This document shows, piece by piece, positions 9,404 to 63,598 of a DNA stretch of 64,000 nt. A model generated the notes under the pieces. It was not told where the DNA came from and searched no databases. It saw only the letters and a program-made list of their open reading frames with translations. The translations under genes were made by a program, and so were the position numbers. Source of the DNA: Acidobacteriota bacterium (GTDB lineage Bacteria > Acidobacteriota > Terriglobia > Terriglobales > SCQP01); contig DAIDIE010000031.1 in the NCBI GenBank assembly GCA_027459505.1, forward strand, positions 1-64,000, written 5' to 3'. Numbering within the stretch: the first letter of the stretch is position 1; each line of letters starts with the position of its first letter.

Positions 9404-9560
9404 GGAAAAAACCCGCCTCCACGCCCCCGCCGTCTTTACTTGGCCCGGGGTCCCAAAGGTGCTTTTTCGCCTCCCGCGGCCGCAATTGCCGTGACCAGCT
9501 AAGGCCGAGCCGAAAGGCGCCAGCCACTGCGGCCCTGCCGCTGCCCGGTGGAGGAATTCC

Positions 9561-12157: not shown

Positions 12158-12210
12158 GGCACTAGGTCTGATGCGGGGCCGCCCCCGCCCGGGACGTTTT
12201 CTGTTCCCAA

Positions 12211-12372
12211 CGAGCCAGGGCCGAGTCGAACTGCTTTCGAGTTCGAAATCGCAGGCCGAAGTGCTGGGTTGCCTACCAGGTCCCGCCCCGCTGGCGACTA
12301 GTAAAGCGCGGCCACCATCCGTGAGCTTCGGCCGGACACCGAAGCGGGTGAAATAAAAGCGGCCGTGCCGCC
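12211..12372 (+). repeat. Dispersed intergenic repeat, copy 1
   Basis: About 160 bp lying directly against the folP stop codon. It starts CGAGCCAGGGCCGAGTCGAA and ends AAAAGCGGCCGTGCCGCC. Internal foldings: TCGAACT...AGTTCGA, GGCCGAAG pairing with CTTCGGCC 70 bases later, and a 7-bp stem GCTTCGG/CCGAAGC with a short loop (CCGGACA). Other copies: 18941-19117, 34515-34729, 35468-35585, 43318-43486. Confidence 0.85.
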
Positions 12373-13311
12373 TTAGCCCTTCGCGTTGGCCAGTGCCGCT
12401 TCCGCGACCGCCGCCGCCGCGCGGCCCGCCTCCACGTCATGCACGCGGATCAAGCGCGCACCATGCATGATGCAAACCGTATTAGCGGCCACGGTGCCGT
12501 ATAGGCGCTCTTCGGCTGGGAGGTCGCCCAGCAGGTGCCCGATAAAACGCTTGCGCGACAAGCCCGCCAGCAGTGGCCGTCCAAAATGCTGCCAACTTTT
12601 GAATCCGGTTAGTAGCGGCAGGTTTTCGTTGAGGTTTTTGCCAAACCCAAAGCCGGGATCGAGCACCATCTGCGCAGGCCGTACACCCGCCGCCGCGGCG
12701 CGGACGAAAATCGCTTCAAAACCCGCCGTCACGGTGGCCACCGGGTCGGCCAACGGCGGAAGCTGATGCATGGTGGCGAAGTCGCCCCGGTGATGCATAG
12801 CGATCAGCCCGCAGCCAGTGCGCGCCACCAGCGCCGCCATTGCCGGCTCACTTAAGCCGGTAACGTCGTTAATAATATCCGCGCCCGCGCGCAGCGCCAG
12901 TTCGGCAGTGCCGGCATGACGCGTATCCACGGAAAGAATTGACTTGGGAAAACGCTCGCGAATAGCGCGCAATGCGGGCAGCAGCCGCTGCTGCTCTTCC
13001 GCTGGACTGAGCGGGCTCGCCCCCGGCCGTGTGGATTCGGCGCCGAGGTCGAGCACTTCCGCCCCCTGGTGCAGCGCCGTGTCGGCCGCTGCGATCGCGT
13101 TGGCGACCGTTTCAGACTCCTGCAGCGACGCGCCCAGCCGGCTGTCCACATAAAACGAGTCGGGCGTAAGGTTGAGAATGGCGCATACCCAGGTGCGCGC
13201 GCCGATTTCCACGTGGCGTCCGCGCGCCAATTGCCAACTCATCCCTGGCCGCGCAGTTGCCCCATGCGCCGCCAGCTCCTCAGAAGCGGTCATGGTGCTA
13301 TTGTCAGGCAT
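12373..13311 (-). CDS. folP: Dihydropteroate synthase
   Basis: A 312-residue TIM-barrel enzyme joining p-aminobenzoate to the pterin pyrophosphate in folate synthesis. Signature segments: CAILNLTPDSFYVDSRLG (pterin site and Mg-binding Asn), LDLGAESTRPGASPLS, SVDTRHAGTAE, IINDVTGL, VLDPGFGFGKNLNENLPLL and LLAGLSRKRFIGHLLG. The first 35 residues vary among homologues; a second ATG at 13293 is equally possible as a start. It diverges from the exported protein gene at 13458, so promoters for both must lie in the 146 bases between them. Confidence 0.95.
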   Translation of the reverse strand: MPDNSTMTASEELAAHGATARPGMSWQLARGRHVEIGARTWVCAILNLTPDSFYVDSRLGASLQESETVANAIAAADTALHQGAEVLDLGAESTRPGASPLSPAEEQQRLLPALRAIRERFPKSILSVDTRHAGTAELALRAGADIINDVTGLSEPAMAALVARTGCGLIAMHHRGDFATMHQLPPLADPVATVTAGFEAIFVRAAAAGVRPAQMVLDPGFGFGKNLNENLPLLTGFKSWQHFGRPLLAGLSRKRFIGHLLGDLPAEERLYGTVAANTVCIMHGARLIRVHDVEAGRAAAAVAEAALANAKG

Positions 13312-18940: not shown

Positions 18941-19117
18941 ACGGGCCAGGGCCGCGTCGCACTGATTTCGAATTCGAAACCGCAGGCCGAAGTGACAGCC
19001 AAGGTCCGGGTTGCCGTTTAGGTCCTGCACCGCTGGCGACTGGTAAAGCCCCCCGGCCACAATCCGTGAGCTTCGGCCGCACACCGAAGCGGGTGAAATA
19101 AATGCGGCCGTGCCGCT
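18941..19117 (+). repeat. Dispersed intergenic repeat, copy 2
   Basis: About 177 bp between guaB and the cytochrome gene. It keeps GGGCCAGGGCCG, GCAGGCCGAAGT, CACCGCTGGCGACT, GAGCTTCGGCC, ACACCGAAGCGGGTGAAATA and GCGGCCGTGCCGCT. The first hairpin is degraded here (TCGCACT for TCGAACT), while the GCTTCGG/CCGAAGC stem is intact. Confidence 0.8.
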
Positions 19118-34514: not shown

Positions 34515-34729
34515 ACGAGCCAGGGCCGAGTCGAACTGCTTTCGAGTTCGAAATCGCAGGCCGAAGTCGTAGCGAAGGTCCGGGGTTGCCCTTTAGGTCC
34601 CGCACCGCTGGCGACTAGTAAAGCGCGGCCACCATCCGTGAGCTTCGGCCGGGGTCCCCGAGCCGCGCCGCGCGGCTTGGGGTGGGGGCCGGACACCGAA
34701 GCGGGTGGAATAAAAGCGGCCGTGCCGCT
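34515..34729 (+). repeat. Dispersed intergenic repeat, copy 3 (long loop)
   Basis: About 215 bp between the AttH-like gene and tadA, highly similar to copy 1. The stem GCTTCGG/CCGAAGC is kept, but its loop carries about 38 extra bases that themselves form a GC-rich hairpin (GGGGTCCCCGAGCCGCGCCG facing GCGCGGCTTGGGGTGGGGGC). The repeat ends 43 bases before the tadA ATG, so it may be part of that leader. Confidence 0.85.
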
Positions 34730-35324: not shown

Positions 35325-35414
35325 GGAGAGGTGGCCGAGTGGTTGATGGCACCTGCCTCGAAAGCAGGCATACCTTCACGGGTATCGGGGGTTCGAATCC
35401 CCCCCTCTCCGCCA
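35325..35414 (+). tRNA. tRNA-Ser (anticodon CGA)
   Basis: A 90-base tRNA with acceptor GGAGAGG/CCTCTCC, anticodon loop CTCGAAA (anticodon CGA, reads UCG), a long variable arm (TACCTTCACGGGTA) as in class II tRNAs, T-arm GGGGGTTCGAATCCCCC and an encoded CCA end. All stems pair. Confidence 0.97.
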
Positions 35415-35467: not shown

Positions 35468-35585
35468 AGTGGCCGGGTCGAACTGTTTTCGAGTTCGGGA
35501 TCGCAGGCCGAAGTGGTAGGAAGGGTCCGGGGTCGCAGTTCCGGCCGGACACCGAAGCGGGTGGAATAAAAGCGGCCGTGCCGCT
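35468..35585 (+). repeat. Dispersed intergenic repeat, copy 4 (internal deletion)
   Basis: About 118 bp between tRNA-Ser and the DUF58 gene. Both ends match the other copies (GGGTCGAACTGTTTTCGAGTT at the left, CCGAAGCGGGTGGAATAAAA at the right), but the middle (CTGGCGACTAGTAAAGCGCG and its surroundings) is missing, so the GCTTCGG arm is reduced to TTCCGG. Confidence 0.8.
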
Positions 35586-43219: not shown

Positions 43220-43317
43220 AGGGCAGTGGTAGGGCCATTGTCGATGGGCAAGGTAGCCGCCGTCAATGGCAAGCTGGAGCATAGCCGTAAAAAATCCTAT
43301 CTCGGCTATACTCTTGA

Positions 43318-43486
43318 CGAGCTAGGCTGAGTCGAACGGATTTCCGGTTCAGCCGAAGTGCTGGATGGCCTGCTAGATCCCGCACCGTTGGCGACCAAGA
43401 TCATCCCGGCCAATACTCGGTAGCTTCGGTCCTGGGGTTCCCGCCTGCGCGACGCGGGACCGGTTGCGAAGCGGGTGGGATAGTGG
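43318..43486 (+). repeat. Dispersed intergenic repeat, copy 5 (most diverged)
   Basis: About 169 bp in the 333-bp gap between the RodZ-like gene and the cyclase. It keeps CTGAGTCGAAC, CAGCCGAAGTGCTGG, CCCGCACCGTTGGCGACCA, TAGCTTCGGTCC and TTGCGAAGCGGGTGGGATA. The stem is GCTTCG/CGAAGC with an insert of about 38 bases that contains its own inverted repeat (TCCTGGGGTTCCCGCCTGCG facing GCGACGCGGGACCGG). The rest of the gap, 43487-43552, holds nothing recognisable. Confidence 0.75.
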
Positions 43487-43552
43487 AATCAACGTGGCAG
43501 CGCCCCGGTGTTGCAGGGCAGGGCAGTTAACGATTTCCAATAAGACAGGCGA

Positions 43553-51000: not shown

Positions 51001-51113
51001 AGCAGGTGCCATTGCTCGGCAGTCTACCGGTGGTGGGTTACCTGTTTAAGCACACGACAGTAACGGACAACAGCAACGAGCTGCTCTTCTTTATCACCCC
51101 GAGGATTATCTAA
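48042..51113 (+). CDS. pilQ: Type IV pilus secretin PilQ
   Basis: A 1023-residue outer-membrane secretin. After a signal sequence (MLLCAGLAGLTPSLVAQ) come two AMIN domains, about 50-150 and 225-325 (IGRLRVERNDRETAIFVGAE), which bind peptidoglycan. A Pro/Val/Ala-rich linker at about 345-560 holds a 95-residue tandem duplication (49230-49514 and from 49515). The STN/N0 domain is near 605-690 (ITLNLKNADINDFFRLINQI), then a secretin N1 domain and the beta-barrel core (RVLSRPKIITQNNTKASVEQ, PVVLQLTVTPQITAENTVFL, ending LLGSLPVVGYLFKHTTVTDN). Its stop codon overlaps the next gene's start (TAATG). The linker is unusually long. Confidence 0.95.
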   Translation: MNISSAKARLLKERPRGLRKWRTSPWPFRMLLCAGLAGLTPSLVAQPAPSTLRMIIFRGVQAAPSAESTLLRVRASAGFTHTEYRPSPNLLLVDLHNVVLDENRQPVVLNQGPVSSYRIFDFSGANHEHVLRLEIALRGPARPEVSMQGGDLLVRVVAGTAGPTAAPVIRQVNTPLVARLDPPRVEPQRSPLPPALPQAHFLSRPAARPQARAAVAPSRIGRLRVERNDRETAIFVGAEPSLGPVHAYVLHQPERLVMDFAATRDDLDRQRWNVNSPTVLDVRVAQFTARTARVVVDLRKPVTAKIEQSSNGVWAEFPVNALGAEGAPRVRVAASVWSAREQAAQPLLAEVRMPERPSTAVRAGNSLVNETLPPTQLSPRRAKAVAQPLRPAARTTVLPTAHKIQASVARVNAVARPAVMAHAAVRPVAQPVHIPVAQPVVARVLPPANRSQHPPVRAVVAVRPVAQAQVRTPVVRSMPVRKQPAEPVRETMLSSENKMQASVAAANAVARQVAMAHAAGRPVAQPVHLPVSQPVVAGITTSRRANPPVFNLSGNAPSTRNLTRGFGADSHEPQIESGSAVTPRGVPPPSLSQPVQGLAPGTGAPVEYTGERITLNLKNADINDFFRLINQISGLNIVVDPNVKGTVTMMLQDVPWDQALDLVLRNNDLGRELEGNVVRIATLSTLQREAKQQAALAAARESAVPLTTVIRTLSYAQATALVPTLKKFVGARGDVTPDKRTNSLIIQTTPATVPLVDSLIAKLDEKTPQVEVEARVVAASRNFTRELGVQLGIGAGNSSSAVSGLPPQGTSTNASNTALAGITNPAYPLAAGGGLPYNVNLGASSPTSGISFINASNTYRIDAVLSAAEARGLGRVLSRPKIITQNNTKASVEQGVQIPIQTTINNTISIQFFPVVLQLTVTPQITAENTVFLQVDVKNQQIDTGIPAIQGVPAIDTQEATTNVLVSNGGTVVIGGVMVNNTANSVQQVPLLGSLPVVGYLFKHTTVTDNSNELLFFITPRII
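49230..49665 (+). repeat. 285-bp direct duplication in the pilQ linker
   Basis: The segment from 49230 recurs from 49515. In both copies the text runs through QASVA, NAVAR, MAHAA, RPVAQPVH and QPVVA. The second copy breaks off near 49665 where conserved secretin sequence approaches. The period of 95 codons keeps the frame. Confidence 0.75.
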
Positions 51114-54100
51114 TGAAGAAGGGCGCCAGCGCGGCCGATATGGGTCTTTATATGAAGCGTTTCACCGTCATCCCAAACATTCGTAAGTCCACCAGTGCGG
51201 CACTGGCAGCGCTGTTTCTGCTCGGCTTCACGCTCAGCGGATGCGGTGGCGGTGGGACCTCGCTGTTCACCAATCCCAATACCGGTACGTCCAGCTCGGG
51301 CAGTGGTTCCGGCTCGGGCAGTGGAAGTGGGAGTGGCGGCAGCACCAGCACCACGCCAGTCGTCACTACGATTTCGCCGCTCACCGCGGTGGCCGGCAGC
51401 GGCGCCTTGAACCTGACCATCTCCGGCACGGGGATCAACACGAGCACCGCGACCGTAACTTTTAACGGAACGCCCCTTTCAATTGGCGCAGTGAGTACGA
51501 CGTCGATACAAGCGACGGTGCCCGCTAGTTTAACCGCGGTGGGCGGTACATTCCCAATCATCGTTGCCAACGGCAGCAACGCAGCCGCGGCTGTAAACTT
51601 CACCGTGACCAATCCGGTGCCCACGATCAGCGGGTTATCACCGGCGGTTGCGCAGGCGGGAAGCGCTCCTCTGACCCTCACAGTGACCGGTTCGGGATTC
51701 AATTCTTCCACGACGATCAGTTTCAACGGTACCGATCGAACCGCCAGCATGGCGCTGGTGAGTACAACGCAGATCACCATCCCGTTAAGCAGCGCCGATC
51801 TGGCGGTGGCGGGCACCTATTCGGTACTCGTGGCCAATCCCGGCCCCGGAGGCGGGACGGCGAGTCTGCAGAACCTGGTCGTTACCAATCCGACGCCGGT
51901 GATCACGGGCTTTGGTCCCCCCAGTATGAGCGTGAGCACGTCGGGGGCGACCCTGACCATTGATGGGGCGGGATTCGTTCCCGGCTCATTGGCAACATTC
52001 AACGGCGCCTCTCGCCCAGTCACCTTTGTGAGCACCAATCAGATCAACGTGGCGTTGAGTGGCACCGATTTGAGCATCGCCCAAACGGTGCCTGTACAGG
52101 TGACAAATGCGGGTCCTGGCGGAGGGCAGGCGCAATCGACCTATACAATCACCGCCGCCCCGGGTGCGAGCAGCGGCACCAATAATCCCATTCCGGTGAT
52201 TACCGCCCTCAGTCCGGCGAGCCTGGTGGCCGGCTCTCCCGCGCAAAGCCTGACCATTTCAGGAACGGGTTTTGGTCCGAATACGACTTTGACGTATAAC
52301 GGGACGCAGCGTCCCGTAACGCTTCAGGCCAATGGTTCATTGACCATGCCGCTGAGCAATGCGGATCTAGCCTCCGGAGGCGCATTCGCGATTACGGTAG
52401 CCAACCCGTCCCCAGGAGGCGGTACTTCCAACGTCGTCAACTTTGATGTCACGAATCCGGTGCCGTTGATCAGCAGCTTTGGTCCGCCGACGATTACCGC
52501 CGGCACTGCCGCACAAAGCCTCACGATTAATGGTAGCGGCTTCGTCGCCAACTCACTGGCCACATTCAATGGCGCCAGCCGGCCGGTTACGTTCGTGAGC
52601 CCGAGCATTATCACGGTGGCATTGCAGGCGACGGATCTGGCGCTCCCGGGCACTGTGCCGGTAACGGTCAGCAACATCGCTCCAGGCGGAGGCACGGCCA
52701 CGGCGAGTTTCACGATTTCCGCCTCGCAGACGACCACGACGGGCAACAGCAACAATCCCATTCCCGTAATCACCAGTCTGTCTCCATCCAGTGTGGTGGC
52801 GGGAGCGTCAGCGCAGACGCTTTCGATCACGGGGACCGGCTTTGGGACTTATTCCACGGTTACACTCAACGGGACCACGCTAACGGCTACGCTGCAACCC
52901 GTGGCGAGCGGTGCGACCACGGAGACTTTGACAGTTACTTTGACTGCCGCCGACCTCGCCACAGCTGGCACTGACGCTTTTACGGTCAGTAATCCCACGC
53001 CGGGCGGCGGCACCAGTAACGTCTTCAATTTCACGATCAACAATCCTGTTCCCGCCATCACCAACTTGTCTCCAAATTCCGCTGCGGTCGGGAGCGGCGC
53101 GCAGACGGTCACGATCAATGGCACCGGTTTCGTGTCCAGTTCGGCGGTGAGTTTCAATGGCGCCACACGCAGTTCCACCTTCATCAACTCCACCCAGATG
53201 ACGGTCAATCTGCTCAGCGCCGACTTCGTCACTGGCGGCGTCTATTCGCTATCGGTGTACAACGCTGGGCCCGGCGGAGGCACTGGGCAGGCCAACTTCA
53301 CGGTGAGCACCAGCACCACCAGCGGCAATCCGGTTCCGGCAATTGTCAGCCTGAACCCGAGCACCGTCGCCACCGGGTCTTCGGCGCAAACACTGGTGAT
53401 CACGGGCACGGGATTCGTGCCCAGTGCTGCTGTCACTATCAATGGCGCCGCGCACACCTCCACCTATGTCAGCGCAACGGAAATTGACGTGCCTCTGAGC
53501 GTTGCCGATCAGGCGACTGCTGGCACGTATCTGGTACAGGTCAGCAATCCAACTCCCGGTGGAGGTGGATCAAACGACGCCACTCTCACCGTCAGCAATC
53601 CCGCACCCACGATTACTTCCCTGGGACCCAGCTCCATCACCACGGGAAGCGCGGCGCAGTCGATTACGATCAACGGCAGTGGCTTCCTGCCGACCACGAC
53701 AGTTACCTATGGCGGGTCGCTCCGGGTAGTCACTTATGTCAACTCCTCACAAATCAGCGTGGCATTGCTGAGCAGCGACTTCACCACCGCGGGCAACTAC
53801 ACGGTCAACGCCTTCAATGGCGCGCCAGGAGGCGGAAGCGCACAGGCGGTGTTTAGCGTCTCCAGCGCCAGCGGCAATCCGGTTCCGTCCATTACCAGCC
53901 TGACGCCGGCCTCGGCCACCGCGGGCGACGCGCCGGAGACTCTGACCATTACCGGCTCCAACTTTCTCAATACTTCGACGGTGACGTTCAATGGCGTGGC
54001 GCACGCGGCCAGTCTGCTGCCCTCTGGCAATCTGGCGATCGCGCTCTCGGCGTCTGACTTGGCCAACGCTGGGAGCATGGCGGTTGTGGTAACCAACCCC

Positions 54101-57100
54101 ACGCCAGCCGGTGGCCCCTCCAATGTAGTCAACTTCGTGGTCAACAATCCCGCGCCTGTGTTGAGCAGCGTTTCGCCCAGCTCCACCAGCCCGGGCAGCG
54201 CCGCGATGACGGTGACCCTGAATGGCTCGGGGTTCAATACCACCACGCAGGCGAGCTTCAACGGCTCGGTCCGAACTACGACGTTTGTAAACACCTCCCA
54301 GCTGACGATGGCGCTCACCACGGGTGACCTGGCTACGGCGGGCAGCTACACAATTAGCGTCCTGAACGCGGCACCCGGTGGAGGCACTTCATCGCAGACT
54401 TTCACGGTCACGGGTAACAGCAGCAATGGCGTTCCGGCGATTACCACCTTGTCGCCAGCGACTCTGGTGGTAGGCGCCAATCCCACCACGCTGACGGTGA
54501 CGGGTTCCAATTTTCAGTCCACGTCGGTGGTCAACGTCAACGGAAGCCCACGCACTACGACTCTGACTTCCAGCAGCACCCTTACGATTTCGTTAACCGC
54601 GGCCGATCTGAGCACGGCGACCGAACTGGCGATCACAGTGACCAATCCGGCGCCGGGGGGTGGTACCTCAGCGGTCGTTGATCTGCCAATTACCGATCCC
54701 ACTCCAGTCATCTCCTCACTCGGTCCGGGAGCGGTGGCCGCGGGCAGCGGAGCGCAGACGCTCACGATCAATGGCTCGAATTTCGTCGCCGGATCCCAAG
54801 TAACGTTTAACGGAACGGCGCGTACCGCAACGTATGTCAATGGCGGTCAATTGACGATCGCTCTCACGGCCAACGATGTGGTCGCGGCCGGAACCTATGC
54901 GGTGACCGTATACAACGGACCTCCAGGCGGAGGTGTGTCCAATACCGCCAACTTCATTGTGAGCGGGAGCGGTCCGGTCATTTCGAGTCTGTCGCCGGCC
55001 AGCACGCTGGTGAGCAGTGCGGCCTCGATGACGCTCACCGTGAACGGCAGCAACTTCATTGTGCCTAGCGGCAGCAGTACGGGCTCGGTGATCAGCATCA
55101 ACGGCATCAACCGTACCACCACAGTAACCTCGACCACGCAGGCCAGCGTTACTCTGGGCGCCAGTGATCTGGACACGGCGGCGAACAATGTAGTGAACGT
55201 CAGCAATCCGGCCACCAGCACGACGGCAGCCGCGGTCTCCAATGCGGTGGTCTTCCAGGTCGCCAATCCGGTACCAGGCATCACCAGCCTGTCGCCGAGC
55301 ACGGTCGCGACCGGGTCTTCAGCGCAAACGGTAGTGATCACCGGAACCGGCTTTGTCTCCGGCTCGACGGTGAGCATCAACGGGTCATCGCATACCGCGA
55401 CCTACGTGAGCTCGACGGAAATTGACATACCGCTCAGCACAGCCGACCAGGCGACGGCGGGAACCTATCTGGTTCAGGTAACGAACCCAACCCCGGGCGG
55501 GGGTAGTTCCACCAGCGCGACGCTGACCGTCGGCAATCCCGTGCCCGCCATTACGTCACTGGGCCCGAGCGGCATCACGACCGGCAGCGCGGGTCAGTCG
55601 GTCACCATCAATGGTAGTGGGTTTGTGCCATCGACCACTGTGACTTATGGTGGTTCGCTGCGCACGGTTACCTACGTTAACTCGTCGCAAATCACCGTGG
55701 CGCTGCTGAGCAGCGACTTTGCCACCGCCGGAAATTACACGGTTTCCGTGTTCAACGGAACACCGGGAGGTGGGACGGCGCAAGCGGTCTTCACCGTCTC
55801 CAGCGCCACCGGCAACCCGGTTCCGAGTATTACCAGCCTCACCCCGGCTTCAGCAACGGCGGGCGACGCGCCCGAGTCGTTGACAATCACGGGCAGCAGC
55901 TTCCTGAACACCTCGACGGTCACTTATAACGGTGTGGCGCACGCCGCCAGCTTGCTGCCGTCTGGCAACCTGGAGATTGCCTTATCGGCCAGCGATCTAG
56001 CTACGGCGGGGACAATGGCGGTGGTGGTGACGAATCCTTCACCCGCGGGCGGCCCGTCCAATGTGGTCAATTTCACGGTGAATAATCCGGCGCCGGTGCT
56101 GAGCAGCATTTCACCCAATTCGGCGAGTCCGGGGAGCGCAGCGGAAACGATCACCCTCAACGGAACGGGCTTCAATACCGCCACCCAGGCGAGCTTCAAC
56201 GGCTCGGTGCGTACCACCACCTTTGTGAATAGCACCCAGTTGACGATGTCCGTGACGGCGACGGATTTGGCGACGGCGGGGACCTACGCGGTGAGCGTGT
56301 TCAACGCCACCCCCGGTGGCGGCACGGCTTCGCAGAACTTTACAGTGACCAGCACCAGCACCAACGGGGTGCCGACCATCAGCTCGCTGTCACCGTCAAC
56401 CATCACGGTCGGCTCCAGTCCGGCCACGTTGATCGTGAGCGGAACCAACTTCCTCGCCACATCGGTGGTGAACGTCAACGGTACTGCGCGCACGACGACC
56501 CTCAGCGGGGCCACGCTGACCATACCGCTGACCGCCGCCGATCTCGCGACGGCTGGCAATTTAGCGATTACGGTGACCAATCCGGCGCCGGGCGGTGGGA
56601 CCTCGACCGAAGTCGACCTCCCAGTGACCAATCCGACGCCCGCCATTTCGTCGCTGGCGCCTGGCGCCGTGGCGGCCGGAAGTGGCGCCCAGACGCTCAC
56701 CATCAACGGCTCCAATTTCGTCGCTGGTTCCCAGGTGAGCTTCAATGGGACCGCGCGTACGACGACCCTTGTCAACAGCGGCCAGCTCACAATCGCCTTG
56801 ACCGCGAACGACGTGGTTTCCACGGGAGCCTATTCGGTCACCGTGTTCAACGCCGCCCCGGGCGGTGGCGTGTCGAATACCGCTAATTTCATAGTCAGCG
56901 GCAGCGGGCCCGTCATCAGCAGCTTGTCGCCCAGTACCGAAGTCGTGAACACGGCGGCGCCGGTAACGCTAACCGTCAATGGCAGCAATTTCGTCGTCCC
57001 CAGCGGCAGCAGCGCCGGCTCGGTGATTAGCATCAACGGCGTCAACCGCACTACGACGGTGACCTCGGCGACCCAGGCCAGTATCACCCTGGGAGCGGCG

Positions 57101-60100
57101 GATCTGGACACGGCTGCCAGCAACGTCATCAGTATCAGCAATCCCGCCACCAGTACGACGCCAGCGGCGACATCGAACGCGGTGGTGTTCGAAGTGAGCA
57201 ACCCGGTTCCGGCCATCACAACATTGGCGCCTAGCACCGTGACTACGGGCTCATCGGCCCAAACGCTGGTGATTACAGGTACCGGCTTCCTGACTAGTTC
57301 GACCGTGACCGTCAACGGCGCCGCTCACAGCTCAACCTATATCAGCACGACGGAAATCGACGTGCCGCTCAGCGACGCCGATCAGGCAACTGCGGGAACC
57401 TACCTTGTCCAGGTGACCAACCCCACGCCGGGAGGAGGCGGGTCTGGAGACGCCACGCTCACGGTCAGCAATCCGGCGCCCACCATCAGCTCGCTCGGTC
57501 CGAGCAGCGTCACGACGGGGAGCTCGGGCGAATCCGTTACCATCACCGGCAGCGGCTTTCTGCCGGGCACGACAGTCACCTATGGTGGTTCTCTGCGGAC
57601 GGTGACCTACGTAAACACATCGCAGATTAGTGTCGCCCTGTTAAGTTCCGACTTCACGACGGCGGGCAATTACACCATTGAAGCTTTCAATGGAACGCCG
57701 GGCGGGGGGACCGCGCAGGCGGTCTTCAGCGTTTCCAGCGCCAGCAGCAATTCGGTGCCGGTCATCACCAGTTTGACCCCGGCATCGGCCACCGCGGGCG
57801 ACGCACCCGAGTCGCTAAGCATCGCGGGCACGAATTTCCTGGATACCTCCACGGTCACCTATAACGGGGTGGCGCACGCGGCCAGCCTCCTGCCCTCCGG
57901 CAACCTGGAAATCTCGCTCAGCGCCAGTGACCTGGCCACCGCCGGCAACATGGCGGTTGTGGTCACCAACCCTGCGCCGGGCGGTGGTCCGTCAAATGTT
58001 GAAAACTTTGTGGTCAACAATCCCGCCCCGGTGCTGAGCAGCATTTCGCCAAACTCGGCCAGTCCGGGCAGCGCGGGGGAGACGATCACGCTCAACGGCT
58101 CGGGCTTCAACAGCGCGACCCAGGCCAGCTTTAACGGTTCGGTCCGCACGACCACGTTTGTCAACAGCTCGCAACTGACGATGGCGGTGTCTTCCTCCGA
58201 TCTCGCCTCGGCGGGAACGTATCCGGTGAGCGTTCTGAACGCCACGCCGGGTGGTGGGACGGCCTCGCAGAACTTTACGGTAACGAGCACCAGCAGCAAC
58301 GGTGTTCCCACCATCGTGACCCTGTCGCCCAGCACCATCACGGTGAACTCCTCGGCGACCACGCTGACGATTACGGGAACCAATTTCCTCGCCACCTCCT
58401 CGGTGGCGGTCAACGGCGTAAGCCGCACGACAACCTACAACTCCAGCACTTCTCTGGCGATCACGCTCACTGCGGCGGACCTTTCCAGTGCCAGTGATCT
58501 GGCGGTTACGGTTACCAATCCGTCTCCGGGCGGAGGCACCTCGAACGTGGTCAACTTGCCGGTCACCAACCCAGTCCCGGCGATCAGCTCGCTTGGGCCG
58601 GGCGCAGTGGCGGCGGGCAGTGGCGCACAGACACTGACGATCAACGGCTCGAATTTCGTGACCGGTTCGCAGGTGACCTTCAACGGTTCGGCACGCACCG
58701 CAACCTATCTGAGCTCGACGCAGCTCACGATTCCACTGACCGCGACGGATGTTGCCTCGGCCGGAACCTATGGCGTCATTGTCACCAATGCATCCCCTGG
58801 TGGCGGCGTTTCGAATACGGAAAACTTTATCGTCAGCAGTGGCGGCCCAATCATCACCAGCCTGTCGCCCAGCAGCGATCTGCTGGACACGGCGGCGCCG
58901 GTCACCCTGACCGTGAATGGCAGCGGATTTGTGGTTCCCAGCGGCGGCAGCGCTGGCTCGGTAGTCAGCTTCAATGGACTGGCGCGCACGACTACCGTCG
59001 CGTCCACGACCGTGGCGACGATCAGCCTGGGCGCTACCGATCTGGACACCGCGGGCAATTACGTCGTAACTGTGAGCAACCCGGCCACCAGCACCTCGCC
59101 GGCGGCGACGTCCAACTCCACGGTATTTGAAATTACCAACCCCGTACCGGCCATTACGTCGTTATCACCGGCTACGGTGTCGACTGGCGCTTCAGCGCAG
59201 ACCATGGTCATCGCGGGAACCGGATTCCTGTCCAGCTCGACGGTGACCATCAACGGCACGGCTCATAGCGCCAATTATGTAAGTTCGACGGAAATCGACG
59301 TGCCGCTGAGCAGCGCCGATCAAGCTACAGCAGGGAGCTACCTGGTGCAGGTCACGAACCCGACGCCCGGTGGCGGCGGTTCCAACCTGGAAACGTTGAG
59401 TGTCAACAATCCGGCGCCTACGGTCTCCAGCTGGGGACCGACCAGTGTGCTGAGCGGCAGTTCGGCCCAGACGTTGACCATTACCGGAACCGGCTTTATG
59501 ACCGGAACCACGGTGACTTACGCGGGCTCCGCGCGGGTGGTAACCTACGTGAATTCGACACAGATCGAAGTAGCTCTGTTGTCGACTGACTTCAGCGCGA
59601 CGGGCAGCTATACGGTGGTGGTGGCTAACGCCTCGCCGGGTGGCGGATCGACCTCGTTCAACTTTACCGTGTCCAGTTCGTCGGGCAACTCCGTGCCCAC
59701 GATCACCTCGTTGACTCCGGCGAGCACAACAGTAGGAGCGGCACCGTTCACGCTGGACATCAGCGGCACGAGCTTCCTGAGCACATCGACGGTGACCTAT
59801 AACGGAGTCGCGCACAGCGCCAGCCTGCTGCCCTCAGGGCAACTGGCGATTCCGCTGACCGCTTCGGACCTGGCGACGGCGGGCTACTACCCGGTCATCG
59901 TCACTAATCCGGCGCCTGGTGGCGGTACCTCCAACATAGTTAATCTTGAGGTGGACAACCCGGTGCCAACCGTGAGCAGCCTTTCGCCCAATTCCGCGGC
60001 GCCGGGCAGCGCGGCCATCACGGTAACCGTTAATGGCACGAACTTTAACAGCGCCTCGGTAGCCAGCTTTGGCGGCGCAGTGCGGACGACCACCTATATC

Positions 60101-63100
60101 AGCTCAACCCAGCTCGAAGTGGCGGTAACGGCCAGCGATCTTGCGACCGCTGGTACCTACGCCGTGTCGGTGACCAATCCGTCACCGGGCGGCGGGAGCG
60201 CCTCGCAGAACTTCACCGTGACCGCCACCAGCAGCAATGGGGTACCAACGATCACGGCGGTGTCGCCAGTCAGCGGCACCCTCACTGCGGGCGCGGCCGG
60301 TCAATCCTTGATTATCAGCGGCACCAATTTCCTCTCCACCTCCGTGGTGGATTGGAACGGGACAGCGCAGACGACGACGTATAACAGTGCCACCTCGCTG
60401 TCGATTACGATGACGGCGGCGGAACTGGCCACGGCGGCGAACAACGCTATTACCGTGGTGAACCCGTCACCCGGGGGCGGTACCTCGAATGTGTGGACAT
60501 TCGCGGTGGACAATCCCGCGCCGACCATTAGCAGCTTGTCCCCCGCGGCGGTCGCGACGGGCAGTGCGGCGCAGACCCTGACGATCACCGGCACGAACTT
60601 TGTGAGCGGCTCGCAGGTGACCTTCAATGGCTCCGCGCGGGCGGCAACCCTTATCAGCTCGACCCAACTGACAATTGCGCTGACAGCGAGCGACATGAGT
60701 TCGGCGGGTTCCTACGCCGTGACGGTGGCCAATGCCTCTCCGGGTGGCGGCACCTCCGGCGCGGTGGATTTCGTGGTCAGCAGCACGACCCCGATCATCA
60801 GCAGCATTGCGCCCAGCAGCGCGGCGGTGAATGCGACCACGCCGTTGACTCTGACGATCACCGGGCAAAACTTCATTGTTCCCGCAGGCAGCACGCCGGG
60901 AACGGTCATCAGTTTCAACGGCACTTCGCGCACGACCACCGTGGCGTCGACCACTTCGGCGACGATCACGTTGGGTTCGGCGGATCTGCAAACCGCCGGC
61001 ACCTACAACGTTGTGGCGACCAACCCGCCGACCTCGACTTTGCCTGGAGCGAGCTCCAACACGGTGAGCTTCAGCGTGAACAATCCGGTTCCGGCGATCA
61101 CGTCGTTGAACCCGAGCAGCGTCACGGTGGGCTCGTCCGGCCAGACCCTGATCGTCAACGACACGGCAGGCAACTTCCTGTCGAGCTCGGTCATTAACTT
61201 CAACGGTACGGCGCTGACCACCACCTACGTCAGCTCGACCGAAGTGACGGCGATGTTGTCGACCGCCGACCTGGCCACGACGGGAACCTATCCGGTGACG
61301 GTCACCAATCCGGCGCCGGGTGGCGGCACCTCGTCAGTTGTGGACTTCTATGTGGAGAATCCGGCGCCGACGTTGAGCACGGTTTCGCCCAGCAGCATCA
61401 CGGAAGGCTCGTCGGCGACCACCATCACGGTCTCTGGTGGCAGCTTCGAAGCCAGCAGCGTGGTTTACTTTAACGGCGCCGCGCTGTCGACCAGCTACGT
61501 CAATTCAACGCAGTTGACGGCGACGGTTCCCAGTTCCGATCTCACCACCGCGGGTCTGTTCCCGATTACTGTGGAGAACCCGAGCCCGGGTGGAGGAACA
61601 TCCAGCTCGGTGAATCTGACCGTGGGCAATCCGGTGCCGACGCTGTCCTCAATGACGCCGGTGAATGTGGCCAAGTCGCCGAGCACGCCAGTGAACGTCA
61701 CCCTTACGGGGACGAACTTCATGGCGGGCACGACGGTACTTTTCAACGGAACGGCGTTGTCGAGTTCCTTGTACACGCTCAACAGCTCAACGCAGATCAC
61801 CCTGTCGCTGGACAACACCGTTCTGACGACGGCGGGAAGCTTCCCAGTCGAGGTGGACAACCCCGGACCTTACGGCGGAGGGACGTCGAACGCCCTGTAC
61901 ATGATCGTGGGTGGGCCAAGCTCCAGCGCCAGTCCCATCGCGATTAATGCGGAAACGGTTAACGGCCAGACGGTGGATGTGGGCTATATCCCGTTGCCCA
62001 ACACCGATCAGGTCGCAGTAGTGCAGCTCGACAACAGTGATCTGCCCTACCAAGCCGACAACGGGTTTGTGACTACCGGCCTGGAGCAGACCAGCACTAT
62101 TTCGCATATCATGGGCGTGAACCCCGTGATTACCACGCTAACGTTCATTGGCTTCGTCCCCAACTACACCGTGGCCGACATTACCGACGGGATCGTTCTG
62201 GTGGGTAGCTACACCTCCAGTACGGTGCATGAAATTCGAATCTCCGATCACACTGCCGATCCGGGGGGGGCGGCTTATCCCTACACCTTTACGGTCAGCG
62301 GGTCCAGCACGTTCAGCGATGCGACCTGCAGTGGCATTTGCGGTATAGCGATCGACGGATCGGGAATTTCAGGCCGTACCGAGGCGATCGCCGCGACGCC
62401 AACCGGTTACATCGAATTCACGCCATCAGCGCCGGGCACGAACTCGACGTTGACCAGTGCTGCCGCCGCGCCCTCGGAGGAGTTCGGCTACGATTCGACG
62501 ACCTCCAATTGGATCATCACCAGCCCGTGGTATACCGGCAGCAGCGGAGGATTGCAGTACATCAACATGCTGAAGTCGTCCACGACGCTTGTGACGACGG
62601 CAAACTACGTGGGAACCAAGCCCGATTCCGGTGTCATTGACGACACGACCGCGTTGTCGGTGATCCCGGATGAGGGTACGGGTACGAACTACCTGCTGAA
62701 TCTGGCGGGGATTACGTCCATTTCATCGCCGACCACTCTACCCTCGGCCAGCTTTACCATCCCGCAGGGAACGTACTGCGCCAACCGGGCGGATTGGACC
62801 ATGACGTCGATCCACTTCAATACTCATATCCTGATGTCGGGTCAGGAGTTGACGCCGTGCATTGCGGTTACGCAGCTATCGACGTCGAATCCTGGGTCGG
62901 GGGTGAATCCAACCGCGCCAAGCGGAACATCGGCGATCCACTTTGGCCAACTCTCGGCGCCGCAGCCCAGCTATACCACCGGAGCACCGTACGGTACATT
63001 GAGCACCACCGGACTCGATCCGGACGGAAATGCCTTCAAGAACAGCGGCGATCCGCATCTGTTGGCAACGTTCACCAGTGTGCTGAACGGTGACGCCATG

Positions 63101-63598
63101 GGTATTGTGGTTGAAGACTCCGGGAGCTGGATTGCCGAAGTCAACCTGAGTACTCTGATGAACTTCAGTAGTGGGGTCAGCGCCCTATCGTCACAGGGCG
63201 AGATCAGCCCCTCGGACATGGCCTCGAATACGGCCTACCTGCGCATCTTCAACCCGGCGCCGGATCTGTTGAGCGCCAGCCCCACGACCATCACGCATGG
63301 GGCGAGTAACACAACAGTAACGTTAACGGGCGTAAAAGACACCACTGGCAGTTACGGTCATGGATTTGAGACCACCTCGACGGTCACGATCCAATACCCG
63401 ACTTCCACGGGTGGGGCCACCACCGCCACGACCACCCTGACTTCGTCGTCTCCGTACTTCTCATTTGTCAGCGCAACCGACATTCAGGTCACGCTGACAG
63501 CAGCCGAGTTGCAGTACACCGGTACGATAACGATAACGGTAACCAATCCGTCGCCTGGCGGAGGAACCAGCAGCTCCGCGACGATCACGATCAACTAA
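51113..63598 (+). CDS. Giant IPT/TIG-repeat lipoprotein, last gene of the pil operon
   Basis: A 4161-residue predicted surface lipoprotein. A signal peptide ends in a lipobox, FLLGFTLSGCGGGG near residue 45, followed by a Ser/Gly linker (SSSGSGSGSGSG). Then come about 39 immunoglobulin-like IPT/TIG domains of roughly 90 residues, each with a pattern such as AQTLTINGSGF, FNG.R, DLATAGTY and NP.PGGGTS. Domains 1-7 are residues 80-739; domains 8-35 (740-3324) form four copies of a seven-domain block; 36-38 follow; residues 3601-4047 are a non-repeating, Cys-containing region (SDATCSGICGIAIDGSG); a last IPT-like domain closes the protein. Start ATG 51113 overlaps the pilQ stop and has GAGG upstream; ATG 51152 is a second option. 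Role as adhesin or pilus-linked surface fibre is inferred. Confidence 0.85.
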   Translation: MKKGASAADMGLYMKRFTVIPNIRKSTSAALAALFLLGFTLSGCGGGGTSLFTNPNTGTSSSGSGSGSGSGSGSGGSTSTTPVVTTISPLTAVAGSGALNLTISGTGINTSTATVTFNGTPLSIGAVSTTSIQATVPASLTAVGGTFPIIVANGSNAAAAVNFTVTNPVPTISGLSPAVAQAGSAPLTLTVTGSGFNSSTTISFNGTDRTASMALVSTTQITIPLSSADLAVAGTYSVLVANPGPGGGTASLQNLVVTNPTPVITGFGPPSMSVSTSGATLTIDGAGFVPGSLATFNGASRPVTFVSTNQINVALSGTDLSIAQTVPVQVTNAGPGGGQAQSTYTITAAPGASSGTNNPIPVITALSPASLVAGSPAQSLTISGTGFGPNTTLTYNGTQRPVTLQANGSLTMPLSNADLASGGAFAITVANPSPGGGTSNVVNFDVTNPVPLISSFGPPTITAGTAAQSLTINGSGFVANSLATFNGASRPVTFVSPSIITVALQATDLALPGTVPVTVSNIAPGGGTATASFTISASQTTTTGNSNNPIPVITSLSPSSVVAGASAQTLSITGTGFGTYSTVTLNGTTLTATLQPVASGATTETLTVTLTAADLATAGTDAFTVSNPTPGGGTSNVFNFTINNPVPAITNLSPNSAAVGSGAQTVTINGTGFVSSSAVSFNGATRSSTFINSTQMTVNLLSADFVTGGVYSLSVYNAGPGGGTGQANFTVSTSTTSGNPVPAIVSLNPSTVATGSSAQTLVITGTGFVPSAAVTINGAAHTSTYVSATEIDVPLSVADQATAGTYLVQVSNPTPGGGGSNDATLTVSNPAPTITSLGPSSITTGSAAQSITINGSGFLPTTTVTYGGSLRVVTYVNSSQISVALLSSDFTTAGNYTVNAFNGAPGGGSAQAVFSVSSASGNPVPSITSLTPASATAGDAPETLTITGSNFLNTSTVTFNGVAHAASLLPSGNLAIALSASDLANAGSMAVVVTNPTPAGGPSNVVNFVVNNPAPVLSSVSPSSTSPGSAAMTVTLNGSGFNTTTQASFNGSVRTTTFVNTSQLTMALTTGDLATAGSYTISVLNAAPGGGTSSQTFTVTGNSSNGVPAITTLSPATLVVGANPTTLTVTGSNFQSTSVVNVNGSPRTTTLTSSSTLTISLTAADLSTATELAITVTNPAPGGGTSAVVDLPITDPTPVISSLGPGAVAAGSGAQTLTINGSNFVAGSQVTFNGTARTATYVNGGQLTIALTANDVVAAGTYAVTVYNGPPGGGVSNTANFIVSGSGPVISSLSPASTLVSSAASMTLTVNGSNFIVPSGSSTGSVISINGINRTTTVTSTTQASVTLGASDLDTAANNVVNVSNPATSTTAAAVSNAVVFQVANPVPGITSLSPSTVATGSSAQTVVITGTGFVSGSTVSINGSSHTATYVSSTEIDIPLSTADQATAGTYLVQVTNPTPGGGSSTSATLTVGNPVPAITSLGPSGITTGSAGQSVTINGSGFVPSTTVTYGGSLRTVTYVNSSQITVALLSSDFATAGNYTVSVFNGTPGGGTAQAVFTVSSATGNPVPSITSLTPASATAGDAPESLTITGSSFLNTSTVTYNGVAHAASLLPSGNLEIALSASDLATAGTMAVVVTNPSPAGGPSNVVNFTVNNPAPVLSSISPNSASPGSAAETITLNGTGFNTATQASFNGSVRTTTFVNSTQLTMSVTATDLATAGTYAVSVFNATPGGGTASQNFTVTSTSTNGVPTISSLSPSTITVGSSPATLIVSGTNFLATSVVNVNGTARTTTLSGATLTIPLTAADLATAGNLAITVTNPAPGGGTSTEVDLPVTNPTPAISSLAPGAVAAGSGAQTLTINGSNFVAGSQVSFNGTARTTTLVNSGQLTIALTANDVVSTGAYSVTVFNAAPGGGVSNTANFIVSGSGPVISSLSPSTEVVNTAAPVTLTVNGSNFVVPSGSSAGSVISINGVNRTTTVTSATQASITLGAADLDTAASNVISISNPATSTTPAATSNAVVFEVSNPVPAITTLAPSTVTTGSSAQTLVITGTGFLTSSTVTVNGAAHSSTYISTTEIDVPLSDADQATAGTYLVQVTNPTPGGGGSGDATLTVSNPAPTISSLGPSSVTTGSSGESVTITGSGFLPGTTVTYGGSLRTVTYVNTSQISVALLSSDFTTAGNYTIEAFNGTPGGGTAQAVFSVSSASSNSVPVITSLTPASATAGDAPESLSIAGTNFLDTSTVTYNGVAHAASLLPSGNLEISLSASDLATAGNMAVVVTNPAPGGGPSNVENFVVNNPAPVLSSISPNSASPGSAGETITLNGSGFNSATQASFNGSVRTTTFVNSSQLTMAVSSSDLASAGTYPVSVLNATPGGGTASQNFTVTSTSSNGVPTIVTLSPSTITVNSSATTLTITGTNFLATSSVAVNGVSRTTTYNSSTSLAITLTAADLSSASDLAVTVTNPSPGGGTSNVVNLPVTNPVPAISSLGPGAVAAGSGAQTLTINGSNFVTGSQVTFNGSARTATYLSSTQLTIPLTATDVASAGTYGVIVTNASPGGGVSNTENFIVSSGGPIITSLSPSSDLLDTAAPVTLTVNGSGFVVPSGGSAGSVVSFNGLARTTTVASTTVATISLGATDLDTAGNYVVTVSNPATSTSPAATSNSTVFEITNPVPAITSLSPATVSTGASAQTMVIAGTGFLSSSTVTINGTAHSANYVSSTEIDVPLSSADQATAGSYLVQVTNPTPGGGGSNLETLSVNNPAPTVSSWGPTSVLSGSSAQTLTITGTGFMTGTTVTYAGSARVVTYVNSTQIEVALLSTDFSATGSYTVVVANASPGGGSTSFNFTVSSSSGNSVPTITSLTPASTTVGAAPFTLDISGTSFLSTSTVTYNGVAHSASLLPSGQLAIPLTASDLATAGYYPVIVTNPAPGGGTSNIVNLEVDNPVPTVSSLSPNSAAPGSAAITVTVNGTNFNSASVASFGGAVRTTTYISSTQLEVAVTASDLATAGTYAVSVTNPSPGGGSASQNFTVTATSSNGVPTITAVSPVSGTLTAGAAGQSLIISGTNFLSTSVVDWNGTAQTTTYNSATSLSITMTAAELATAANNAITVVNPSPGGGTSNVWTFAVDNPAPTISSLSPAAVATGSAAQTLTITGTNFVSGSQVTFNGSARAATLISSTQLTIALTASDMSSAGSYAVTVANASPGGGTSGAVDFVVSSTTPIISSIAPSSAAVNATTPLTLTITGQNFIVPAGSTPGTVISFNGTSRTTTVASTTSATITLGSADLQTAGTYNVVATNPPTSTLPGASSNTVSFSVNNPVPAITSLNPSSVTVGSSGQTLIVNDTAGNFLSSSVINFNGTALTTTYVSSTEVTAMLSTADLATTGTYPVTVTNPAPGGGTSSVVDFYVENPAPTLSTVSPSSITEGSSATTITVSGGSFEASSVVYFNGAALSTSYVNSTQLTATVPSSDLTTAGLFPITVENPSPGGGTSSSVNLTVGNPVPTLSSMTPVNVAKSPSTPVNVTLTGTNFMAGTTVLFNGTALSSSLYTLNSSTQITLSLDNTVLTTAGSFPVEVDNPGPYGGGTSNALYMIVGGPSSSASPIAINAETVNGQTVDVGYIPLPNTDQVAVVQLDNSDLPYQADNGFVTTGLEQTSTISHIMGVNPVITTLTFIGFVPNYTVADITDGIVLVGSYTSSTVHEIRISDHTADPGGAAYPYTFTVSGSSTFSDATCSGICGIAIDGSGISGRTEAIAATPTGYIEFTPSAPGTNSTLTSAAAAPSEEFGYDSTTSNWIITSPWYTGSSGGLQYINMLKSSTTLVTTANYVGTKPDSGVIDDTTALSVIPDEGTGTNYLLNLAGITSISSPTTLPSASFTIPQGTYCANRADWTMTSIHFNTHILMSGQELTPCIAVTQLSTSNPGSGVNPTAPSGTSAIHFGQLSAPQPSYTTGAPYGTLSTTGLDPDGNAFKNSGDPHLLATFTSVLNGDAMGIVVEDSGSWIAEVNLSTLMNFSSGVSALSSQGEISPSDMASNTAYLRIFNPAPDLLSASPTTITHGASNTTVTLTGVKDTTGSYGHGFETTSTVTIQYPTSTGGATTATTTLTSSSPYFSFVSATDIQVTLTAAELQYTGTITITVTNPSPGGGTSSSATITIN
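53330..61084 (+). repeat. Higher-order repeat: 4 x seven IPT/TIG domains
   Basis: Blocks start at 53330, 55268, 57203 and 59141 and end at 61084 (1938, 1935, 1938 and 1944 bp). In each block the seven domain types come in the same order, recognised by: A STEIDVPLS.ADQ, B VTYGGSLR.VTYVNSSQI, C PASATAGDAPE, D TQASFNGSVRTTTFVN, E SVVNVNG..RTTT, F GPGAVAAGSGAQTLTINGSN, and G IVPSGSS.GSVISING, which lacks the PGGG turn and has NPATST instead. The fourth block is the most diverged. Only the domain order and period were checked by reading; identities were not computed. Confidence 0.9.

Follow-up and report, generated by a model that had tools for sequence, protein, structure and literature searches.

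Introduction

The systems closest to the repeat family described here are bacterial elements that are moved, or thought to be moved, by Y1 HUH transposases. As set out in the sections of Quentin et al. 2018 (PMC6006769) drawn on here, IS200/IS605 elements have guide and target tetranucleotides, whereas REP sequences are 21-65 nt long and carry a GT[AG]G foot. The same sections place Acidobacteria among the hosts of class 3 TnpA-Y1 REPtron-like structures, which are atypical secondary structures with a 5' foot CnGA that adjoin a Y1 HUH gene and are associated with it, about 600 of them in Solibacter usitatus (PMC6006769). For REP sequences, the relevant parts of PMC8266576 and PMC3116915 describe CT cleavage and high-copy intergenic hairpins that are believed to move in trans.

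We compare with these systems a repeat family found in a window of 64,000 nucleotides (the whole stretch of DNA that was analysed) from an Acidobacteriota genome. The family is almost certainly mobile, and its members are probably non-autonomous elements that transpose as one folded DNA strand.

Copies in the window and beyond

A profile built from full copies of the window's own genome (G000; 4.06 Mb in 45 contigs) finds five copies in the window, all on the plus strand (Table 1), at coordinates close to those of the first-pass annotation. The three best copies contain, with 0-2 mismatches, the left, middle and right words by which that annotation had defined the family; the copy at 35468 is without the middle and the one at 43318 is diverged. 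A sixth, heavily deleted copy proposed at 9493-9543 was not recovered (no profile match at E <= 0.01). The description of all copies as intergenic is approximately right: a crude ORF caller puts 51 of 66 copies in the examined own-genome stretches between genes, as it does 122 of 148 in the relative G006, and the ends of the window copies are overlapped by some mechanical ORFs. Copy 4 stands after a tRNA-Ser (35325-35414).

Table 1. Copies of the repeat in the window and features of the full-length copy 3; ^ marks the cut or element boundary
Feature	Position	Strand	Description	Basis
Copy 1	12210..12371	+	162 nt; left target CCCA^, right end GCCGC^	Profile match 12210-12371 (hmm 1-174), left flank
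Copy 2	18941..19116	+	176 nt; left target CCTG^	Profile match 18941-19116, left flank
Copy 3	34515..34728	+	214 nt, full unit; left target CCTG^	Profile matches 34515-34652 and 34687-34728, left flank
Copy 3, left module	34515..34617	+	P1 (GCCAG/CTGGC) closes a predicted three-way junction with P2-P3 and P4	Predicted structure, between-genus covariation
Copy 3, extra GC-rich hairpin arm	~34653-34686	+		
Copy 3, right terminal hairpin	34716..34728	+	GCGGC-CGT-GCCGC	Sequence
Copy 4	35468..35584	+	Internal deletion; left and right modules joined; extreme left end absent	Profile matches 35471-35539 and 35537-35584
Copy 5	43317..43503	+	Diverged; left target CTTG^	Profile match 43317-43503, left flank

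Read on the minus strand, the right hairpin of copy 3 is followed by T-rich sequence and looks terminator-like. The right end of copy 1, read backwards (12359-12375), is likewise a terminator-like hairpin with a T run, one base from the stop codon of a minus-strand frame at 12373-13311. Elsewhere in the window, a plus-strand open frame of 4161 aa (51113-63598) contains many diverged repeats with a higher-order period of ~1.94 kb.

The genome-wide search that the annotation had named as a possible refutation instead revealed many copies beyond the window's five. In the own genome, patterns allowing up to three mismatches find 138 left ends, 84 of them forward and 54 reverse, together with 126 right ends, of which 79 are forward and 47 reverse. 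These counts mean at least about 140 copies and bear out a dispersed, high-copy family. Chance is ruled out as their source, since the reversed control patterns gave no match in the whole genome. No copy carries a gene between its ends in the examined stretches of the own genome and G006, in agreement with the earlier reading of a non-coding element without a transposase of its own.

Related copies were found in two genomes of another genus in the same taxonomic family. One of them, G006, carries 377 right ends of a diverged sister family with a unit of 189 nt; in the other, G001, a covariance model finds at least six copies with intact left ends (one of seven matches, L176, has no intact left end and was left out). 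The left-module pattern occurs in 26 stretches, 25 of them in MAG YP1.bin64 and one in MAG ZJ1.bin67, which holds one copy. We regard the family as narrow because only 2 of 41 genomes, the own genome included, matched in a first DNA search, with the caution that this search called G001 negative and that such negatives are therefore weak. Across 399 genomes of the class (best 10 candidates per genome), the covariance model gave clear matches in the own genome and G001. Three further genomes with one covariance match each (E 0.005-0.008) were rejected, as the matched sequences bear no resemblance to the element.

The exact right-end pattern matched nothing in named genomes, and there were no matches in viral contigs or in plasmids and phages. 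Rfam searched at E <= 10 returned chance-level matches only, with no family reaching its threshold, consistent with the suggestion that the repeat might belong to no known motif. The annotation's second possible refutation, identity with a named element, thus failed as well, and no paper naming the repeat was found among the open-licence papers searched.

Structure of the element

The core unit of the own genome is 174 nt long and runs from ACGAGCCAGGGCC to GCGGCCGTGCCGC. Its arms are variable (up to about 370 nt), lengthening and shortening freely, and include an extra arm of ~113 nt in the own genome. Within the arms of the mobile element in G006, for example at C6:14902-15246, a second hairpin family (CAATTCCGCAGGAATTG and relatives) recurs.

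On the plus strand, the left module is predicted to form a three-way junction in which P1 encloses P2-P3 and P4. The genera differ in P1, with GCCAG/CTGGC replaced by GTTAA/TTAAC, and in P3, where an A-U pair becomes G-C; each of the four P1 pairs has changed in both partners, and pairing holds in 94.6% of cells, against at most 51% with slid partners. Most of this covariation is one split between two lineages, so the independent events are few. The right module consists of a long hairpin and the terminal GCGGC/GCCGC hairpin; the right-hand unit starts, on inspection, at GAGTATTCGC in G006, ACGTTTCGC in G001 and GAGCTTCGG in G000. Hairpins are predicted at three places in both families, namely within the left module, where the right unit begins and at the right end, and inspection of the two element ends showed no inverted repeats. 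Folded as single-stranded DNA, the 189-nt unit of G006 is far more stable than its shuffles (z -6.83), while the 174-nt unit of the own genome does no better than its shuffles (z -0.48).

Insertion sites and the target rule

The near-certainty of mobility comes from joining the flanks of elements and searching for uninterrupted counterparts. Four clean empty sites were found, all in G006. C43:100-318 corresponds to C22:679-835 (157 nt, 100%, no gap), the counterpart of C27 lies at the end of C2 (96% over 160 nt, again ungapped), and nested insertions in other copies lie at C43:7623-7811 and C22:322-510. At the four junctions there is neither target duplication nor loss. The C43/C22 and C27/C2 pairs resemble alleles of strains that coexist in one metagenome bin, and they lie near contig ends, where an assembly artefact is possible. 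The C22/C43 locus also has a second, upstream element difference that is not a clean empty site. For a possible nested copy in the own genome, at C34:132028, the picture is less clear because the target sequence has diverged.

The insertions follow a simple rule: in the putative target tetranucleotide the first base alone is fixed, and the other three show no more than a bias. C stands four bases before the left end (-4) in 51 of 55 own-genome copies and in all 6 intact left ends of G001, as well as in 85 of 91 copies of G006 once left ends not starting NAGCG and right ends not ending GCCGC are omitted; the genome C fraction is 0.31. An earlier, smaller and unfiltered count in G006 gave C in 36 of 43 and T in 5. 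The right end of the element itself, CCGC, likewise carries a C at this distance from its cut. To the right of the element, position +2 is T in 31 of 52 own-genome copies and 71 of 138 in G006, against a background of 0.19.

The same rule recurs inside the element. In the full G006 unit, C stands at -4 before the right module in 87 of 88 copies, and the right-hand ~78 nt is also found alone in G006, starting at GAGTATTCGC. Of the short units that begin cleanly at GAGTATTCGC, 21 of 21 carry C at -4 (cut CNNN^). This count omits 13 of the 34 non-full entries, which either differ from the start motif at three positions or have a model start of 1, and it sets aside another 24 right ends in which no start motif could be recognised; over all 34 non-full entries, C is at -4 in 28. 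In 15 of the 21 clean short units the tetranucleotide is other than the CCAT of the full element. Judged by these sequences, the right-hand unit seems to move alone, and since full and short units are both cut at C-N-N-N^, one rule seems to make two mobile units with a common right end. The search for uninterrupted counterparts paired none of the short units with an empty site.

Orientation along the chromosome

The shared direction of the copies, noticed in the first-pass annotation and seen in every profile match on the examined part of contig C8, turned out to be an important clue to mechanism. Among the matches listed for the own genome (100 of the 126 right ends), 60 of 73 neighbouring pairs have the same orientation and 13 differ; in its examined stretches, 45 of 59 neighbouring pairs point the same way. 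The bias recurs in G006 (116 of 128 pairs the same, 12 different). Flanking gene strands show a mix close to background. On own contig C9, 7 of 7 matches, two of them weak (E 0.006-0.007), are co-oriented with rplB, which points to the CNNN strand as the lagging-strand template, on the evidence of one gene on one contig and on the assumption that ribosomal genes run with the fork. GC skew was uninformative on the replication strand.

Proposed mechanism and its alternatives

Clean insertion, a short left-hand motif that recurs at the right end, hairpins at the ends and a replication-linked polarity together make up the rules of Y1 HUH transposition. We favor a Y1-type model: the repeats are probably non-autonomous elements that move in the form of a single folded DNA strand, and the enzyme is most likely a Y1 HUH-type transposase acting in trans. 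The model would comprise the following elements:

(i) The element would move as a single folded DNA strand, and we infer from its polarity that the strand bearing CNNN is the lagging-strand template.

(ii) A Y1 HUH-type transposase, presumably of the IS200/TnpA-REP superfamily, would be supplied in trans, bind the hairpins at both ends, and cut and join the strand.

(iii) The left module may represent cargo, or a second left end in folded form, that became joined to the front of the short unit.

The own genome has two Y1_Tnp genes (PF01797), and none was found in G006 (377 copies, 96% complete). Neither in the own genome nor in G001 do the Y1 genes have a copy of the element nearby or flanking them. 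Draft metagenome bins often lose multicopy genes, so the missing Y1 gene of G006 weakens the Y1 claim and does not kill it. Given this gap, we say that the element works like the IS200/IS605 or REP type and do not file it as a member of either. A search for Y2 transposases gave no matches, with a control that was also silent, and thus does not establish absence.

Other genes of mobile systems are present. At ~11480-12310 of L218 in the own genome, a Y1 transposase gene has TGCCCACTCAAC...GTTGAGTGGGC palindromes on both sides; gene and palindromes are a separate REP-like system of this genome. An RVT_1 lead, striking in two copy-rich genomes, was followed and rejected: the proteins are a 701-aa reverse transcriptase on own contig C39 (L117:253-2358, minus strand), with PADLOC RT_UG19 (DRT) as its best match (E 7e-158), and a 698-aa RT-Cas1 fusion on contig C28 of G006 (L116:220-2316).

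A single-stranded element could also be moved by an enzyme other than a Y1 HUH transposase, such as an unrecognised recombinase, as the loose target and the lack of a Y1 gene in G006, the richest genome, would allow. The second point is blunted by the loss of multicopy genes from draft bins. Target and polarity fit Y1 enzymes as the sections of PMC6006769 drawn on here describe them, and we judge a non-Y1 enzyme unlikely.

Less likely again is a SINE-like retroposon of bacteria, in which a reverse transcriptase acting in trans would copy a structured RNA for insertion at replication forks. It would account for the constant right end, the shorter copies that lack the left part, the orientation bias and the RNA-like covarying folds, and RVT_1 rises above its cut-off in just the two copy-richest of 13 searched family members. 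The two reverse transcriptases, however, are unrelated (UG19 DRT-type versus RT-Cas1), and G001 has copies but no RVT_1. Short copies mostly begin at one point ruled by CNNN rather than at random, target duplication is absent, and there is no consistent G-U excess, with G-T versus A-C counts (34/54 and 138/103) showing no consistent strand preference.

HEARO and IscB omega-RNA elements occur as structured, ORF-less copies, and the repeat could in principle be the non-coding RNA of such an RNA-guided nuclease system, moved by an IS605-type enzyme; size, conserved fold and high ORF-less copy number are similar. We consider this very improbable, as none of five genomes gave a TnpB (PF07282) match in a search whose control worked and was positive in 6 of 14, the IscB domain RRXRR had no match in 11 genomes, though there the silent control means that absence is not established, and Rfam gave no match.

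The least probable reading, a host-selected polar signal (a terminator or chromosome-orientation mark) instead of a mobile element, can draw on the orientation bias, on the terminator-like right end when read backwards and on an excess of minus-strand gene ends over plus-strand starts within 40 nt on the right side (17 versus 11 in the own genome, 33 versus 15 in G006), but it is opposed by nested and strain-polymorphic insertions, sharp boundaries, the target rule and the lack of a DNA-search match in most relatives, and may be a secondary use of the element.

Within the model of single-strand transposition, a bolder proposal is that the family is a new single-stranded DNA mobile lineage, with a one-base target rule (a C, the cut following three bases later), a short self-mobile hairpin unit joined to a conserved three-way-junction module, and an enzyme outside the known Y1 families; we regard it as doubtful. 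If no Y1 enzyme appears, a new kind of enzyme is to be sought. In uncultured Acidobacteria the family supplies hundreds of mapped insertions that obey a clear cut rule, along with empty alleles and units of two sizes, and it lets one ask how little sequence single-strand transposition needs and how REP-like repeats become larger folded elements.

Relation to described elements

As in HEARO and IscB omega-RNA elements, copies of the repeat are structured and ORF-less; the repeat differs in having no Rfam match and no IscB match, the latter from a search with a silent control.

With IS200/IS605, the repeat shares insertion without target duplication and the absence of inverted repeats; its short left motif, predicted end hairpins and probable lagging-strand polarity would also be alike. 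It differs in a left motif of which the first base alone is fixed and in having no tnpA or tnpB inside. PATEs, in the parts of their description that bear on this comparison, are likewise non-autonomous, and are derived from IS200/IS605; from both, so far as those descriptions extend, the repeat is distinguished by its long covarying left module.

The class 3 structures are similar in being high-copy secondary structures in Acidobacteria. Compared with the sections of PMC6006769 that describe them, the repeat is without an associated gene, and inspection of its consensus places CCGA before P3 and P4, not before the right-unit hairpin; the two are set apart by description, not by sequence.

Finally, no GT[AG]G foot was found on inspection directly 5' of the right-unit hairpin in G006, G001 or G000. 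The REP and REPIN sequences of TnpA-REP (RAYT), as portrayed in the parts of the cited sources used here, are like the repeat in being high-copy intergenic hairpin units, from which it stands apart by its units of ~78 and 174-189 nt and its CNNN^ cuts.
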